Shown here: one piece after another, positions 5,820 through 44,820 of the stretch | How the letters are laid out: every line of letters starts with the position of its first letter | Position numbering within the stretch: position 1 is the stretch's first letter | Origin: Paracoccaceae bacterium | Lineage (GTDB): Bacteria; Pseudomonadota; Alphaproteobacteria; Rhodobacterales; Rhodobacteraceae | NCBI GenBank assembly: GCA_030950185.1 | Contig: JAUZRU010000015.1 | Coordinates: forward strand, 1 to 64,000 | Length of the DNA: 64,000 nucleotides | Direction of reading: 5' to 3' | Position numbers and translations under genes: made by a program | Notes under the pieces: generated by a model | Seen by the model: only the letters and a program-made list of their open reading frames with translations | Database searches by the model: none | Told to the model about the DNA's origin: nothing

Positions 5820-6640
5820 CCCACCCACGCCTGATAGCGGCAAACGGCCATGTGGCCCACATTTCGCTGAAGGGCCTGGTTTCGGCCGAAACCTATGTCG
5901 AGGGCCGCTTGATGCAGGTTATTCGCCCAGTGGCCGATCTGTTGCGCAAGCCGGGGGGCGGGTTGGATTGCCAGCTGCTTTGCGGCAGCCGGTTTCTGGT
6001 TCTTGAGGATCGGGACGGCCATTCCTTTGGCCAGCATCAACGCGATGGCTATGTCGGCTATGTTGCTACCGATGCGTTGGGTCCGCTCGCCGAAATCACG
6101 CATCGGGTCTGTGCCCGGTCAACGCATGTCTATCCAGATCCGGACATGAAAACCCGCCCGTTGGAAGCGCTGCCATTCGGCGCCCGCATTTCGGTGATCG
6201 ATGAACAGCCCGGTTTTTTCAAGTTGCCCCATGGCTATGTCCCCACGCAGCACGCATGCCCCGTTTCAAGGCCGGCAGCCGATCCTGTGGAGGTTATCGA
6301 ATCTTTCCTCGGCATACCTTATCTATGGGGGGGCAACAGTGTCTGGGGAATCGATTGTTCGGGGGCTGTTCAGCTGGCACTTGATGCCTGCGATATCGAA
6401 TGCCCCCGTGATACCGACATGCAGGAAGCAGCGCTGGGCCGGTCGCTTGCCCCTGACGAGCCATTGCTGCGAGGCGATATCGTTTTCTGGAAGGGTCATG
6501 TGGGCATGATGCGGGATCCTGTGACCGTGATTCACGCAAACGCCCATCACATGGCCGTCGCAAGCGAATCTCTTGCCATTGCCAGAATGCGCATCGAACA
6601 GGTCGGGGGTGGCCCCGTGACCTCGATCCGACGTCTATAG
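5816..6640 (+). CDS. NlpC/P60 family cell-wall peptidase with N-terminal SH3-like region
   Basis: This encodes 274 residues with a C-terminal NlpC/P60 domain: catalytic Cys in WGIDCSGAVQLAL and catalytic His in GHVGMM. The first 150 residues are SH3-like (for example VEGRLMQVIRPVADLLRKP and GYVGYVATDALGP), a layout seen in gamma-D-glutamyl-diamino-acid endopeptidases. No clear signal peptide is present, so it may act on imported muropeptides, consistent with its cotranscribed aminopeptidase partner. The start is a TTG at 5816 whose last bases overlap the aminopeptidase stop (TTGA), indicating translational coupling. Confidence 0.88.
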   Translation: MTHPRLIAANGHVAHISLKGLVSAETYVEGRLMQVIRPVADLLRKPGGGLDCQLLCGSRFLVLEDRDGHSFGQHQRDGYVGYVATDALGPLAEITHRVCARSTHVYPDPDMKTRPLEALPFGARISVIDEQPGFFKLPHGYVPTQHACPVSRPAADPVEVIESFLGIPYLWGGNSVWGIDCSGAVQLALDACDIECPRDTDMQEAALGRSLAPDEPLLRGDIVFWKGHVGMMRDPVTVIHANAHHMAVASESLAIARMRIEQVGGGPVTSIRRL

Positions 6641-6961
6641 CGCGCGAATCAACTTGCGTTCGAGCACCCGCAACACCGTCGCAAGGTCATGGCCGCGCCG
6701 CAATATTCGGCCGTCCATGCCGAGAACCGCATATTGCCCCTGTGCCCTGGCCAGCCGGGGGCGTTTTTCAATTCGATAGACTGGATGTTCTGCCGTGCGG
6801 CGGAAAACGGCAAAGACCGCCACATCTCTGAGATGGGAAATCCCGTAGTCGCGCCATTCACCTGCCGCGACCATGCGGCCATAAAGGGAAAGAATCACGT
6901 TCAGTTCCTTGCGGTGAAAGGCGACCTTTTCATCAAGCCTGGCTGAACAGACATCCCTCAT
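6635..6961 (-). CDS. DUF2794 domain protein
   Basis: About 108 residues matching DUF2794, a family largely confined to alphaproteobacteria. Characteristic segments are VAFHRKELNVILSLYGRMV, AAGEWRDYGISHLRDVAVF and RIEKRPRLARAQGQYAVL. The function is unknown. ATG 6961 has a GGA just upstream; an in-frame GTG at 7009 would add 16 residues but lacks a ribosome-binding site. It is convergent with, and overlaps by 6 bp, the NlpC/P60 gene end. Confidence 0.85.
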   Translation of the reverse strand: MRDVCSARLDEKVAFHRKELNVILSLYGRMVAAGEWRDYGISHLRDVAVFAVFRRTAEHPVYRIEKRPRLARAQGQYAVLGMDGRILRRGHDLATVLRVLERKLIRAL

Positions 6962-7103
6962 TGTTCCAATTTGCAGCCAAGTGCTGCGTGAATCAAGTGA
7001 ATTGGCCACATATGGAAACCAAACAAGACTTCTCCTTACTCGCGCCGTCAGAAAATCAGATTCCGTCCCTTTTTCCGCCCCCTTTCCCCGTCAAAACAAT
7101 ACC

Positions 7104-7223
7104 TGTAGCGAGTGACAGCTCACCCCGGTGCCGCCGAATATCAGCCCCCACCCAGATCGGCGGCGCCGGGGACTACAACGAACGAGAGCCCCTGCCCCCG
7201 CCTTTTGTCGGGGGCATTTTTTT
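7104..7223 (+). ncRNA. Structured RNA, copy 1 of a tandem pair (three-way junction plus terminator)
   Basis: A gene-free stretch (6962-7539) holds two related units. Copy 1 has a closing stem GTAG 7105-7108 / CTAC 7173-7176, a small hairpin GAGT 7110-7113 / GCTC 7118-7121, and a long 15-bp stem 7123-7137 / 7157-7171 whose loop contains ATCAGCCCCCACCCAGA. A terminator hairpin follows at 7193-7216 with seven Ts, which sets the strand as plus. The loop and closing stem match copy 2, while stem sequences differ in compensatory ways. I cannot assign a known RNA family. The 5' end is approximate. Confidence 0.7.
7193..7223 (+). terminator. Rho-independent terminator of structured RNA copy 1
   Basis: Perfect stem TGCCCCCG / CGGGGGCA (7193-7200 and 7209-7216), loop of eight bases, followed by TTTTTTT at 7217-7223. 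Confidence 0.9.
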
Positions 7224-7351
7224 GCCTGTCTGACCGGCTCCTTGATTGTCCCGGAAATGGAAACCCAGAATTTCCACAATTTGCCCGAGTCGCCGCTATT
7301 TTGCCCGGATTCCATCCTGCTTCGGCCCAGATTCCCCGCGATAAGGAAGCT

Positions 7352-7467
7352 GTAGCGAGCGAAGGCTCACCCCGGTACCGCGGTTATATCAGCCCCCACC
7401 CAGATCCGCGGTACCGGGAGCTACCAGAAGCCTGACTGCCCTGCCAAATTGGCGGGGCATTTTCTTT
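7352..7467 (+). ncRNA. Structured RNA, copy 2 of a tandem pair
   Basis: This is the second unit, 248 bases after the first. The closing stem is GTAG 7352-7355 / CTAC 7421-7424; the small hairpin is GAGC 7357-7360 / GCTC 7365-7368 (GAGT in copy 1, so a GC pair replaces a GU pair). The long stem is CCCGGTACCGCGG 7371-7383 / 7406-7418 and is perfectly paired even though several base pairs differ from copy 1. The loop keeps ATATCAGCCCCCACCCAGAT unchanged. A terminator hairpin ends the unit. Identity of loop with covariation of stems argues for selection on RNA structure. No ORF of note lies inside. Confidence 0.7.
7437..7467 (+). terminator. Rho-independent terminator of structured RNA copy 2
   Basis: Stem TGCCCTGCC / GGCGGGGCA (7437-7445 and 7451-7459, one GT wobble) with loop AAATT, then TTTTCTTT at 7460-7467. 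Confidence 0.85.
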
Positions 7468-7539
7468 GGGCCAAGGCTGTTTCTGACAATTCCTGAAATG
7501 GGCTGAAGGCGTGATTGATGCAGGCAGAACCACCCCGCC

Positions 7540-8457
7540 TTATGATGTAGCCCGCCTGATATAATCGCTGGTCATCAGGTCGAGATGTGCGCCGCCGCCA
7601 TTCTTGAACAAGGTGATTTCGTCATCATTCTGGCGGGCAAAGCGTCCGGTTTCAAGTTCGCGGTAATCGGCGATGATGTCCCGTTCGGTAATGATTCCGG
7701 TTTCAATGGGGATCATGAGCTCGCCCGTTTCCAGCGCCGTCTTGCGTGAATCCGCAAATATCCGCGCGCGCCCCAGGGCGTCGTCGTCGGTTTCGCGCAT
7801 GTCGGGCAGATAGGCACCGATCAGGTCGATATGTTGCCCCGGTCGCAGCCAGCTGCCGCGCAGGATGGGGGATTTTGTCATGGTGCATGTGCAGATGATA
7901 TCGGCAGATGTCGCGGCGCTGGCCAGATCATCGGCGCGGGCGATCTGGCGGTCAGGGTATTCGGTGATGATGGCATCGACCTTTTCCATGGTGCGGTTCC
8001 AGATGGCAAAGCGCGCGTCAGGAAACAGGGCGCTATAGGCCTCGACCAACGACCGGGCAACCGTGCCGGCGCCGATGATCAGGATATCGCGGCTGTCGGG
8101 GCGTGCTAGCCGGCGCGCGGCAAGCAGGCTGTCGCCGGCGGTTTTCCATTTCGTGACAAGGTGAAAATCGATCACCGCCTCAAGCAGCCCGGTGGTATCG
8201 CTGAACAGCGTGACCACGCCGTTGATCGATGGCAGGCCATGCCGGGCGTGGTTTTCGGGAAAGATCTGGCAGGTCTTGACCGCGATGCCCAGCCCGTCGA
8301 TCCAGGCGTGGCGCGACAGCATCGTGTCGGGCGCGCGGTGCATGACGACGTCTTCAAGTTGCGCCTCGGGCAGCCGGTGCCCTGCGGCCAGCGCGTCGGT
8401 CAGGTCGATCCAGTCGAGCCGGGGCTCGGCCGAGCTATCGATGATCTGAAACGTCAT
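7540..8457 (-). CDS. Ornithine cyclodeaminase family protein
   Basis: This encodes 305 residues of the ornithine cyclodeaminase/mu-crystallin family. Features are an NAD-binding Rossmann segment DILIIGAGTVARSLVEAY, the substrate-side K in LVTKWKTAGDSLLAARRLA, and the C-terminal motif FKNGGGAHLDLMT. Such enzymes convert ornithine to proline or reduce ketimines; substrate cannot be fixed from sequence. Start ATG 8457 follows AAAGGAAA; an upstream extension would overlap the UPF0178 gene. The gene lies 10 bp after that gene on the same strand, so the two likely form an operon. Confidence 0.85.
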   Translation of the reverse strand: MTFQIIDSSAEPRLDWIDLTDALAAGHRLPEAQLEDVVMHRAPDTMLSRHAWIDGLGIAVKTCQIFPENHARHGLPSINGVVTLFSDTTGLLEAVIDFHLVTKWKTAGDSLLAARRLARPDSRDILIIGAGTVARSLVEAYSALFPDARFAIWNRTMEKVDAIITEYPDRQIARADDLASAATSADIICTCTMTKSPILRGSWLRPGQHIDLIGAYLPDMRETDDDALGRARIFADSRKTALETGELMIPIETGIITERDIIADYRELETGRFARQNDDEITLFKNGGGAHLDLMTSDYIRRATS

Positions 8458-8467
8458 GGCTTTCCTT

Positions 8468-8920
8468 TCAACGGTTTGTTGCGGCGCGAACAAGTTGTTC
8501 CAGCCTGTCCAGAAAACGGGATTTGTCGCGCTTGCCAAAGGTCTTTCCACTGCCCTTGAGAAACGGATCCGAACCCCTGAGATCGGCCATCAGGTCACGC
8601 ATGGCCAGCCGGTTGCCGATATTGGCGGGCGTGAACAGGTCGCCGTCATGGCGCAGGGCCGTTGCCCCGTTTTCGATGACGCGCGCCGCAAGCGGGATGT
8701 CGGCGGTAATCACGATGTCGCCCTCGGTTGCGCGGTCGGCGATCCATTTGTCGGCCTCATCCGCGCCGGCGGCGACAATGATTGTCTTGACCAGGGGGTG
8801 GAGGCTTGGTCGGATGCCGCCATTGGACACTATATACAATGTAACGCCGTGCCGTTCGGCGACCTTCAGGGCCTCGGGTTTTACCGGGCAGGCATCGGCA
8901 TCGACATAGATCGCGGTCAT
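8468..8920 (-). CDS. UPF0178 (YaiI/YqxD, DUF188) family protein
   Basis: This encodes 150 residues. The N-terminus [11 protein letters not shown] and the central segments [10 protein letters not shown] and [13 protein letters not shown] are the signature of the YaiI/YqxD family, which has a PIN-like fold with conserved acidic residues. Nuclease activity is suspected for the fold but not proven for the family. It is the first gene of a two-gene minus-strand unit and is divergent from glpK. Confidence 0.9.
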
Positions 8921-43684: not shown

Positions 43685-44820
43685 GCCCCGGCCCCCCTCA
43701 ACCCATCAAGAAACAGATCTATTTCCCGCAATCCACCGGTTTCCAACCGCAGCATGTTGATATCTCGCAGGATCTTTTCAGGACCGGTGTCACGCATGTA
43801 TCCTGATCCACCATGCACCTGCACCACCTGATTTGCAGCGTGGCACAGCGCGTGGTGAACATGTTTCCGCGCTGCCGCGATCCTCGCCAGATCGATCGAT
43901 TCGACCTCGCCGGCAAGGGCCCGCAAGGCCAAGCCTGTTTCGCTCAGACTGGTTTCGATATCGGCAAGAAGCTGCTTGACTGCGGGATGTTGTCGGATCA
44001 CAGACCCACCTTGTCGTCGCAGCGAAGCATATTCCATCGCCAGGGAAAATCCGTGATCAAGGGCACCTGCACCGATTGCCATCTGTCCCAACATGTCACG
44101 CACAAGCACAGAGCGAAACAATACACGGGCTGTATCGAGATCCGGTCGGTAAACGGTACCGGATGCTATATCTGCCGAAATCCTGAAGGCCCTCAACTCG
44201 TCAAACCCATGCTGCGGATCAAGCCTGTCCACCCGCATCTTGTTGCGATCGATCCATTGCCAGCCAACCGTGCCGTCTGCCCAGATCGGCCAGATGACGC
44301 TTTCCCAGTTTTCCCTGGCGATCATCACGGTCATGTGGTTGTCGCGGTCAAGCCAGTCGGCTAGCAGGTTCCGATCATCCTCGTCGATCAATTCGTGGGA
44401 AAGCCATTTCGCCAGACTGCTGCGCCCCAGTCCGTAATGACCAACCGGCACAAGGATTGCCCCTAACGGACTGTTGTCGGCAAGATCAGCCCCCACCCGA
44501 CGTATTACATGGTTCGCAAGCGCCAACCTGTGCCACGCAAAGGCCAGTCCGGGGCAACGGGAAGCGACCAACCGCAACATGCCCGTATTCAACGCCATGC
44601 TTTCGGCTGTCGTGCTGGTTTCCCACAGAGCGATTCCCGTCTCGGCACTGCCGCTTGGTAACATTCCCAGTTCCAGAGCTTCCTGGCTGAGCTGTTCGAA
44701 AATCGCGTTTGATATGGGGTGTTCGGGGCGCTGGCAAGCTGGAGTTATCCGCCCTTCGACAAACGAGCCGATTTCGTCGAGCAGATATTCAAGATCGTCA
44801 ATTTCAAGTTTGATAGCCAT
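43681..44820 (-). CDS. Acyl-CoA dehydrogenase homologue (probable non-catalytic partner)
   Basis: This encodes 379 residues. The C-terminal helical domain has QVVQVHGGSGYMRDTGPEKILRDINML and then RLETGG where catalytic members have a YEGT motif; aligned to IYEGTSEI, the base Glu falls on Thr. The middle domain is also divergent (no clear TEPxxGSD). It could bind FAD or CoA but probably does not abstract the alpha proton itself. First gene of the operon, divergent from the AraC regulator. ATG 44820 was chosen as the start; 44886 is in frame but intrudes into the promoter gap. Confidence 0.8.
   Translation of the reverse strand: MAIKLEIDDLEYLLDEIGSFVEGRITPACQRPEHPISNAIFEQLSQEALELGMLPSGSAETGIALWETSTTAESMALNTGMLRLVASRCPGLAFAWHRLALANHVIRRVGADLADNSPLGAILVPVGHYGLGRSSLAKWLSHELIDEDDRNLLADWLDRDNHMTVMIARENWESVIWPIWADGTVGWQWIDRNKMRVDRLDPQHGFDELRAFRISADIASGTVYRPDLDTARVLFRSVLVRDMLGQMAIGAGALDHGFSLAMEYASLRRQGGSVIRQHPAVKQLLADIETSLSETGLALRALAGEVESIDLARIAAARKHVHHALCHAANQVVQVHGGSGYMRDTGPEKILRDINMLRLETGGLREIDLFLDGLRGAGA

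Follow-up and report, generated by a model that had tools for sequence, protein, structure and literature searches.

The window, the 64,000-nucleotide stretch of DNA analysed here (contig JAUZRU010000015.1 of a Paracoccaceae bacterium), carries two tandem units that almost certainly belong to a selected RNA family. We file this family as a new one among trans-acting bacterial small RNAs and propose that it is probably controlled by the ChvGI envelope-stress system and acts through its C-rich loop. To this reading as a whole we give a probability of about 0.55.

Structure and selection of the RNA units

The units occupy positions 7105-7223 and 7352-7467 of the + strand, 247-248 bp apart, in a gap flanked by two - strand genes, a DUF2794 gene at 6635-7009 and a gene of the ornithine-cyclodeaminase family at 7540-8550. 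A preliminary description had placed two units here, and direct inspection of the sequence found both. A 21-nt stretch, ATATCAGCCCCCACCCAGATC, is the same in both. In each unit a GUAG/CUAC stem closes the fold and encloses a small hairpin (4 bp, 4-nt loop) and a longer one of 13-14 bp topped by a 21-22-nt loop; a separate intrinsic terminator follows. This is the architecture originally suggested. The predicted folds (-58.2 kcal/mol, z -5.05 for unit 1; -59.8 kcal/mol, z -6.23 for unit 2) were equalled in stability by none of 200 dinucleotide shuffles of either unit, and the reverse strands fold less distinctly (z -2.88 and -3.92). A scan for terminators gave three + strand matches, two of them overlapping at 7193-7216 and one at 7437-7459, compared with 0.9 (sd 1.1) in shuffled sequence. 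The features are given below, with scores from two models, R1 and R2, built from 19 same-genus units and from 123 units, respectively.

6635-7009, - strand: DUF2794 gene (PF10984, 135.5 bits), a marker of the locus outside the RNA
7033-7079, + strand: unit 1 upstream region, with C at the phased positions 7035, 7046, 7057, 7068 and 7079
7044-7046 and 7077-7079, + strand: GCC upstream of unit 1; strict GCC-N8-GCC absent
7105-7177, + strand: unit 1 structured core (fold, alignment; R1 92.2 bits, R2 87.4 bits)
7105-7108/7173-7176, 7110-7113/7118-7121 and 7123-7136/7158-7171, + strand: unit 1 closing stem, small hairpin and long stem
7144-7155, + strand: unit 1 constant loop GCCCCCACCCAG (95-100% per position in 123 units)
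7193-7223, + strand: unit 1 intrinsic terminator (fold and terminator scan)
7283-7327, + strand: unit 2 upstream region, with GCC at 7283-7285, 7292-7294, 7303-7305 and 7325-7327
7352-7425, + strand: unit 2 structured core (fold, alignment; R1 94.1 bits, R2 84 bits)
7352-7355/7421-7424, 7357-7360/7365-7368 and 7370-7383/7406-7419, + strand: unit 2 closing stem, small hairpin and long stem (outermost pair C/A)
7392-7403, + strand: unit 2 constant loop GCCCCCACCCAG (shared stretch and 123-unit alignment)
7437-7467, + strand: unit 2 intrinsic terminator (fold and terminator scan)

The preliminary description held that the stems differ between the copies and stay paired. The overall fold does hold in both, with the exception of a single C/A mismatch at the outermost pair, the foot, of the long stem of unit 2. 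The change from GAGU/GCUC to GAGC/GCUC, presented there as covariation, is one-sided (U-G to C-G) and not compensatory. Because two copies alone are thin evidence, the case for covariation is now carried by homologues. The absence of homologues with a kept loop and covarying stems had been named as grounds for refutation; the search found such homologues across the family, sharing the loop and showing compensatory changes in their stems, which upholds the proposal of a selected RNA.

The main alignment (A6) holds 123 units, 122 of them distinct, from the window and 93 of 139 loci; same-place repeats, chance matches and some near-identical Litoreibacter copies were left out. Two-sided changes occur in all 22 pairs. 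They affect 346 cells, compared with 82.2 (sd 12.3) after shuffling and 20-52 after displacement of the 3' partners by 1-3 columns. Pairing is possible in 94.6% of paired cells (81.5% shuffled), and the covariation score is 0.439 (0.198 shuffled, at most 0.097 with slid partners). None of 500 shuffles matched the observed covariation values, which come from an alignment fitted to the structure. When 19 units from nine same-genus genomes are aligned with MAFFT, 5 of the 22 pairs show two-sided changes compared with 1.1 after shuffling, and 99.0% of cells pair. By element, pairing in the 123 units is 98.8% in the long stem, 89.8% in the closing stem and 83.0% in the small hairpin.

The loop behaves differently from the stems. 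All 123 units anchor on CCCCACC, and mean identity is 84% over 18 loop columns compared with 68% in the long-stem arms. Each position of GCCCCCACCCAG is 95-100% constant, a figure somewhat overstated because the search favoured the loop: units were found by an exact-loop search and then by the loop-weighted model R1. A protein-coding reading was rejected, stop codons being present in 51, 61 and 114 of the 123 units in the three frames; core lengths are spread evenly over the three remainders, and no frame is kept open.

Distribution, subtypes and synteny

In the window, only two tRNAs reached the gathering score of an Rfam 15 family, and none was reached at six other loci of the RNA, in agreement with the earlier suggestion that the units lie outside described families. 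Relaxed thresholds gave seven matches, all below gathering score, the best on the opposite strand with 22.2 bits against a required 56.4; these were rejected. Among the papers covered by the literature search, none described this RNA family.

Rhodobacteraceae is a large, mostly marine bacterial family. A search for the exact 18-nt loop gave 45 stretches on named genome contigs, most of them from Litoreibacter and from Rhodobacteraceae metagenome-assembled genomes (MAGs); among these stretches, three without stems (L039, L045, L061) are chance matches and two (L026, L064) are incomplete. In one MAG the unit is dispersed as well as tandem. By blastn against 61 genomes, matches were obtained in the window genome, in all nine other genomes of its genus and in two further genera. 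Covariance model R1 detected the RNA in at least 226 of 394 Rhodobacteraceae genomes (E <= 0.001), or at least 225 of 393 by genus, a lower bound given the strict filters and the 12 candidates scored per genome. Model R2 matched 4 of 385 genomes in a class-wide sample, all four from the same family, and one genome of the family (G108) gave no match; because the class-sample matches are all of its own family, the RNA appears confined to Rhodobacteraceae as far as searched. Three queries against plasmids gave no match. Only the two window copies occur in the window genome at up to two loop mismatches, and R1 recovers the same two. A run of 14 loop letters, ATCAGCCCCCACCC, at 44485-44498 of the window lacks stems, lies within long open frames and is probably due to chance. 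At another locus (L094:1264-1331) a weak second unit (22.0 bits, R2) lies beside the main one; decay after duplication may occur.

The units fall into two subtypes at two syntenic places. Type A begins with GTAGCGAG and type B with GTAGCTG. An intrinsic terminator with a U-tract, a feature expected of Hfq-dependent small RNAs, is present in 56 of 73 type A units and 9 of 50 type B units, with 1 after shuffling in each case. The type A locus lies downstream of NlpC/P60 and DUF2794 genes and is followed by varying genes; the type B locus follows STAS and RsbW-like genes, presumably rbaV/rbaW, and precedes the gamma-glutamyltranspeptidase gene ggt (PF01019). The names STAS, RsbW and pepA were assigned by eye (to C3, C5 and C10), and C4 we take to be HspQ. 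In a set of 94 loci, some of them incomplete at their ends, the flanking genes separate the two places. DUF2794 precedes the array at 58 of the 61 loci whose first unit is type A and at none of the 33 whose first unit is type B; for STAS/RsbW the corresponding counts are 0 of 61 and 30 of 33. Downstream, ggt follows 34 of the 40 arrays whose last unit is B and 4 of the 54 whose last unit is A. The arrays detected were A (46), B (26), AA (8), AB (4), BB (4), BBB (3), AAB (2) and AAAB (1). The window genome has two A and no B by model R1, and in some same-genus relatives (L007, L008, L009, L014) A and B are adjacent before ggt.

A copy of the unit is also carried by two metagenomic viral contigs of 6.9 kb (L265:835-909) and 5.5 kb (L415:1306-1380), apparently from one phage, which matched the covariance model with 67.9 bits; among the viral matches listed, the next best of the other 79 loci reached 28.8 bits. 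This unit has a DUF6362 gene on one side and a DNA methyltransferase gene on the other, with genes for terminase subunits nearby; by eye, GCC, GTC and GCC stand at 11-bp steps upstream of it and a terminator-like hairpin downstream. Against named phages the window gave no match, and the phage copy gave ten matches, all short and unrelated.

Phased upstream repeats and ChvI as their probable regulator

Upstream sequences were compared for 117 of the 123 units, those with a [GA]TAG anchor and sufficient distinct upstream sequence. In these regions, aligned on GTAG, C is found at -26, -37, -48, -59 and -70 in 89, 81, 77, 87 and 62% of cases, and in 86 of the 117 at least four of these five positions are C; an A/T-rich stretch lies at -12 to -9. 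Pairs of GCC at a lag of 11 number 77, compared with 11.5 after shuffling (sd 3.3, highest 20) and with 7-17 at every other lag from 5 to 16. The motif GCC-N8-GCC is present in 67 of the regions (52 of 69 for type A, 15 of 48 for type B), compared with 10.5 in shuffles and with 65 of 760 random 95-mers of the loci. In the window, unit 1 has the phased Cs without strict GCC-N8-GCC; unit 2 has it, its GCC triplets at 7292-7294, 7303-7305 and 7325-7327 being separated by steps of 11 and 22. No TTGACA was seen in the aligned upstream regions, and a sigma-70 scan of window positions 6900-7600 detected no promoter-like site.

We consider it very likely that the phased repeats are the operator of a regulator. 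From the 11-bp geometry we infer an OmpR-type regulator binding side by side on one helix face, and ChvI is the probable, though less secure, candidate. Its consensus in S. meliloti is reported to be N-GCC-N8-GCC (Ratib et al. 2018, cited through PMC9731502), and the C. crescentus ChvI motif given in PMC9731502, TTGC-N3-GCAA, is different. CenR was rejected as the regulator: its R. sphaeroides motif, TGA-N8-TGA in the accessible part of PMC9275681, does not fit GCC repeats.

ChvI is present in the window genome (G000) and in all 13 genomes of the family that were checked. The protein of the window genome is 79% identical to the query ChvI, which adjoins a ChvG-like kinase and an HPr-kinase domain; that kinase scores 420 bits against the ChvG model (cut-off 740), and the HPr-kinase domain is above the Pfam cut-off. 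In the window genome, a kinase gene lies directly 3' of chvI, and its product has, by eye, a similar N-terminal membrane segment; a further gene beside chvI we take to be pckA. The ChvG sensor domain PF13756 has no match in the window genome and was discarded as a marker of ChvG, being too weak, with scores above cut-off in 5 of 61 genomes of the family.

Within 200 nt of the chvI start, GCC-N8-GCC was found in none of ten same-genus genomes (one with 47 nt of sequence, one with a copy at -247). The three-repeat pattern occurs 15 times elsewhere in the window genome, compared with 11 in the control, and no independent ChvI regulon was recovered. GCC-like 11-bp repeats also precede a gene of the window genome labelled by eye as tryptophanase/tyrosine phenol-lyase-like (L173, L174), which could be a regulon member or a chance occurrence.

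Proposed role of the loop and alternative explanations

In the mechanism we propose, the two window units would encode, in tandem, a regulatory RNA of about 115-120 nt that acts in trans; each would have its own promoter, with GCC repeats every 11 bp in its upstream part. An OmpR-type regulator, most likely ChvI of ChvG-ChvI, would bind these repeats side by side and activate transcription, and the type A RNA would have its 3' end at the intrinsic terminator. The closing stem and small hairpin may anchor the long hairpin as a rigid support displaying the 12-nt C-rich loop, probably the working part because the stem drifts freely while pairing is kept. This loop would pair with a G-rich, GGGUGGGGG-like stretch in one or a few mRNAs and thereby alter their translation or decay. 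Tandem copies and the second locus could provide a higher dose or added inputs.

The loop is the likely contact because it is what selection holds. Our estimates of how it acts follow from negative target tests: we give even odds to base pairing with a few mRNAs and consider binding by a protein conceivable but rather unlikely. Around 748 predicted starts in 800 kb of a relative carrying the RNA (G012), complements of the loop were not more frequent than those of permuted loops (6-mers 74 compared with 76.6, 7-mers 11 with 19.5, 8-mers 3 with 4.8). Around the RNA, the loci contain 105 complementary 8-mers outside the units, compared with 113 for the reversed loop, for which the units were left unmasked. 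Start codons in the G012 and porin tests were called by a simple script.

Several candidate targets were rejected. In the window genome, GGGTGGGGGC (L152:1501-1510) coincides with the ribosome binding site of a gene for a ChpT-like histidine phosphotransferase (PF10090); a sister genome (G008) has GGTTGGGGG instead, and a like site was found in none of 19 further start regions of the family, 21 of 30 loci having been looked at. For the major porins (PF13609), a start was accepted at 25 of 30 loci, a few of these starts (L406, L408) probably being wrong; at none did complementarity to the loop exceed that to permuted loops (lowest fraction 0.325). A test for GGTGGGGG-N-ATGA in 41 genomes was uninformative because AGTA, which is rare, occurs in the reversed control. 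Upstream of five porin starts (L398, L401, L402, L407, L412), within 60 nt, lies a possible hairpin like CCCAATTCGGATTCCCCTGAGTTGGG whose stem letters change together between genomes. On the - strand of L417, GGGTGGGGC abuts a predicted start codon at about 13073, of a protein beginning with MSLKEMLPEYMTEF, and is a possible target of the loop.

The protein-binding role may be pictured as a decoy: an RNA-binding protein would recognise the loop, and the induced RNA would titrate this protein in the manner of CsrB or 6S RNA. Titrating RNAs such as CsrB carry many such sites. The stems would then vary because only the loop is read, and several copies would mean more sites. Twelve near-constant bases on freely varying stems, the one to four units per locus and the lack of excess pairing sites near gene starts or in neighbouring genes all fit this explanation. 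It has no candidate protein and offers one loop per transcript, and G-rich pairing partners may exist outside start regions or in a few mRNAs; on balance we find it rather doubtful. The idea that the RNA blocks many ribosome binding sites as a general anti-Shine-Dalgarno RNA comes from the C-rich loop, whose resemblance to anti-Shine-Dalgarno loops was raised in the preliminary description, and from the role published for CCUCCUCCC loops (PMC3927594, in the text available). As a function this resemblance gained no support: CCUCCUCCC is absent from the listed unit loops, and the G012 result argues against a general role of this kind, not against a few targets. We regard it as very improbable.

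Type B units lie just 5' of ggt and have a terminator in only 9 of 50 cases, as might be expected of a leader or attenuator of the next gene, or of the 3' end of the preceding one. Such a cis-acting element is nevertheless improbable, as type A units usually end in their own terminator (56 of 73) before differing downstream genes, the next gene in the window is on the opposite strand, the phased upstream region accompanies both types, and in several Litoreibacter loci a promoter-like sequence is visible by eye between type B and ggt. A DNA-level repeat of the REP or attC kind, kept by a transposase or integrase, would explain GTAG at the base of a palindrome, the tandem copies, their dispersal in one MAG and the phage copy. 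Against it, synteny is fixed at two loci across genera, and the terminators, phased upstream repeats and G-U-tolerant pairing are traits of a transcribed RNA, making this explanation extremely improbable.

We do not assign the present family to the CCUCCUCCC, ChvR or LhrC groups. The CCUCCUCCC RNAs (SmelA075/SmelA099, and RSs0680a/CcsR1-4 of R. sphaeroides) are described, in the accessible part of PMC3927594, as stress-linked alphaproteobacterial small RNAs with a C-rich anti-Shine-Dalgarno loop; like them, the present family combines a constant C-rich loop with variable stems and several copies. CcsR1-4 derive from the ccaF1 3' UTR (excerpt of PMC8625941), whereas the present family adjoins DUF2794 or ggt and has its own phased GCC upstream region. 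Its loop is CCCCCACC, with CCUCCUCCC in none of the listed unit loops, and in place of two to four hairpins each unit has one C-rich loop before the terminator and a closing three-way junction. ChvR of Caulobacter crescentus, a ChvI-ChvG-controlled small RNA that is described as specific to C. crescentus and targets chvT (PMC6237742), may share its regulator with the present family, whose upstream region has the GCC-N8-GCC spacing reported for S. meliloti ChvI; the two RNAs were compared by description only, and R2 matches in the class-wide sample are limited to the family of the window genome. LhrC1-5 of Listeria monocytogenes are multicopy, under envelope-stress two-component control, and target lapB through three redundant CU-rich sites (available section of PMC4132741). 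The likeness lies in the multiple copies, the pyrimidine-rich pairing site and, probably, the envelope two-component system; the organism is unrelated, and one C-rich loop takes the place of three CU-rich sites.

A broader and frankly speculative possibility, unlikely at present, is a family-wide envelope-stress RNA arm, in which ChvI on up to five phased GCC boxes would drive two sibling loci, the loop would bind one conserved partner, either a sequestered protein or an important mRNA, and the phage copy would tap the host stress circuit. The phage copy raises the question of whether phages exploit the RNA. Both ends of the proposed circuit can be tested, the input (ChvGI) through the phased repeats and the output through the constant loop. 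More than half of the sampled Rhodobacteraceae genera carry a structured RNA that is absent from Rfam and that, if our reading is true, would correspond in this family to the envelope-stress small RNAs known in Caulobacter and Listeria.
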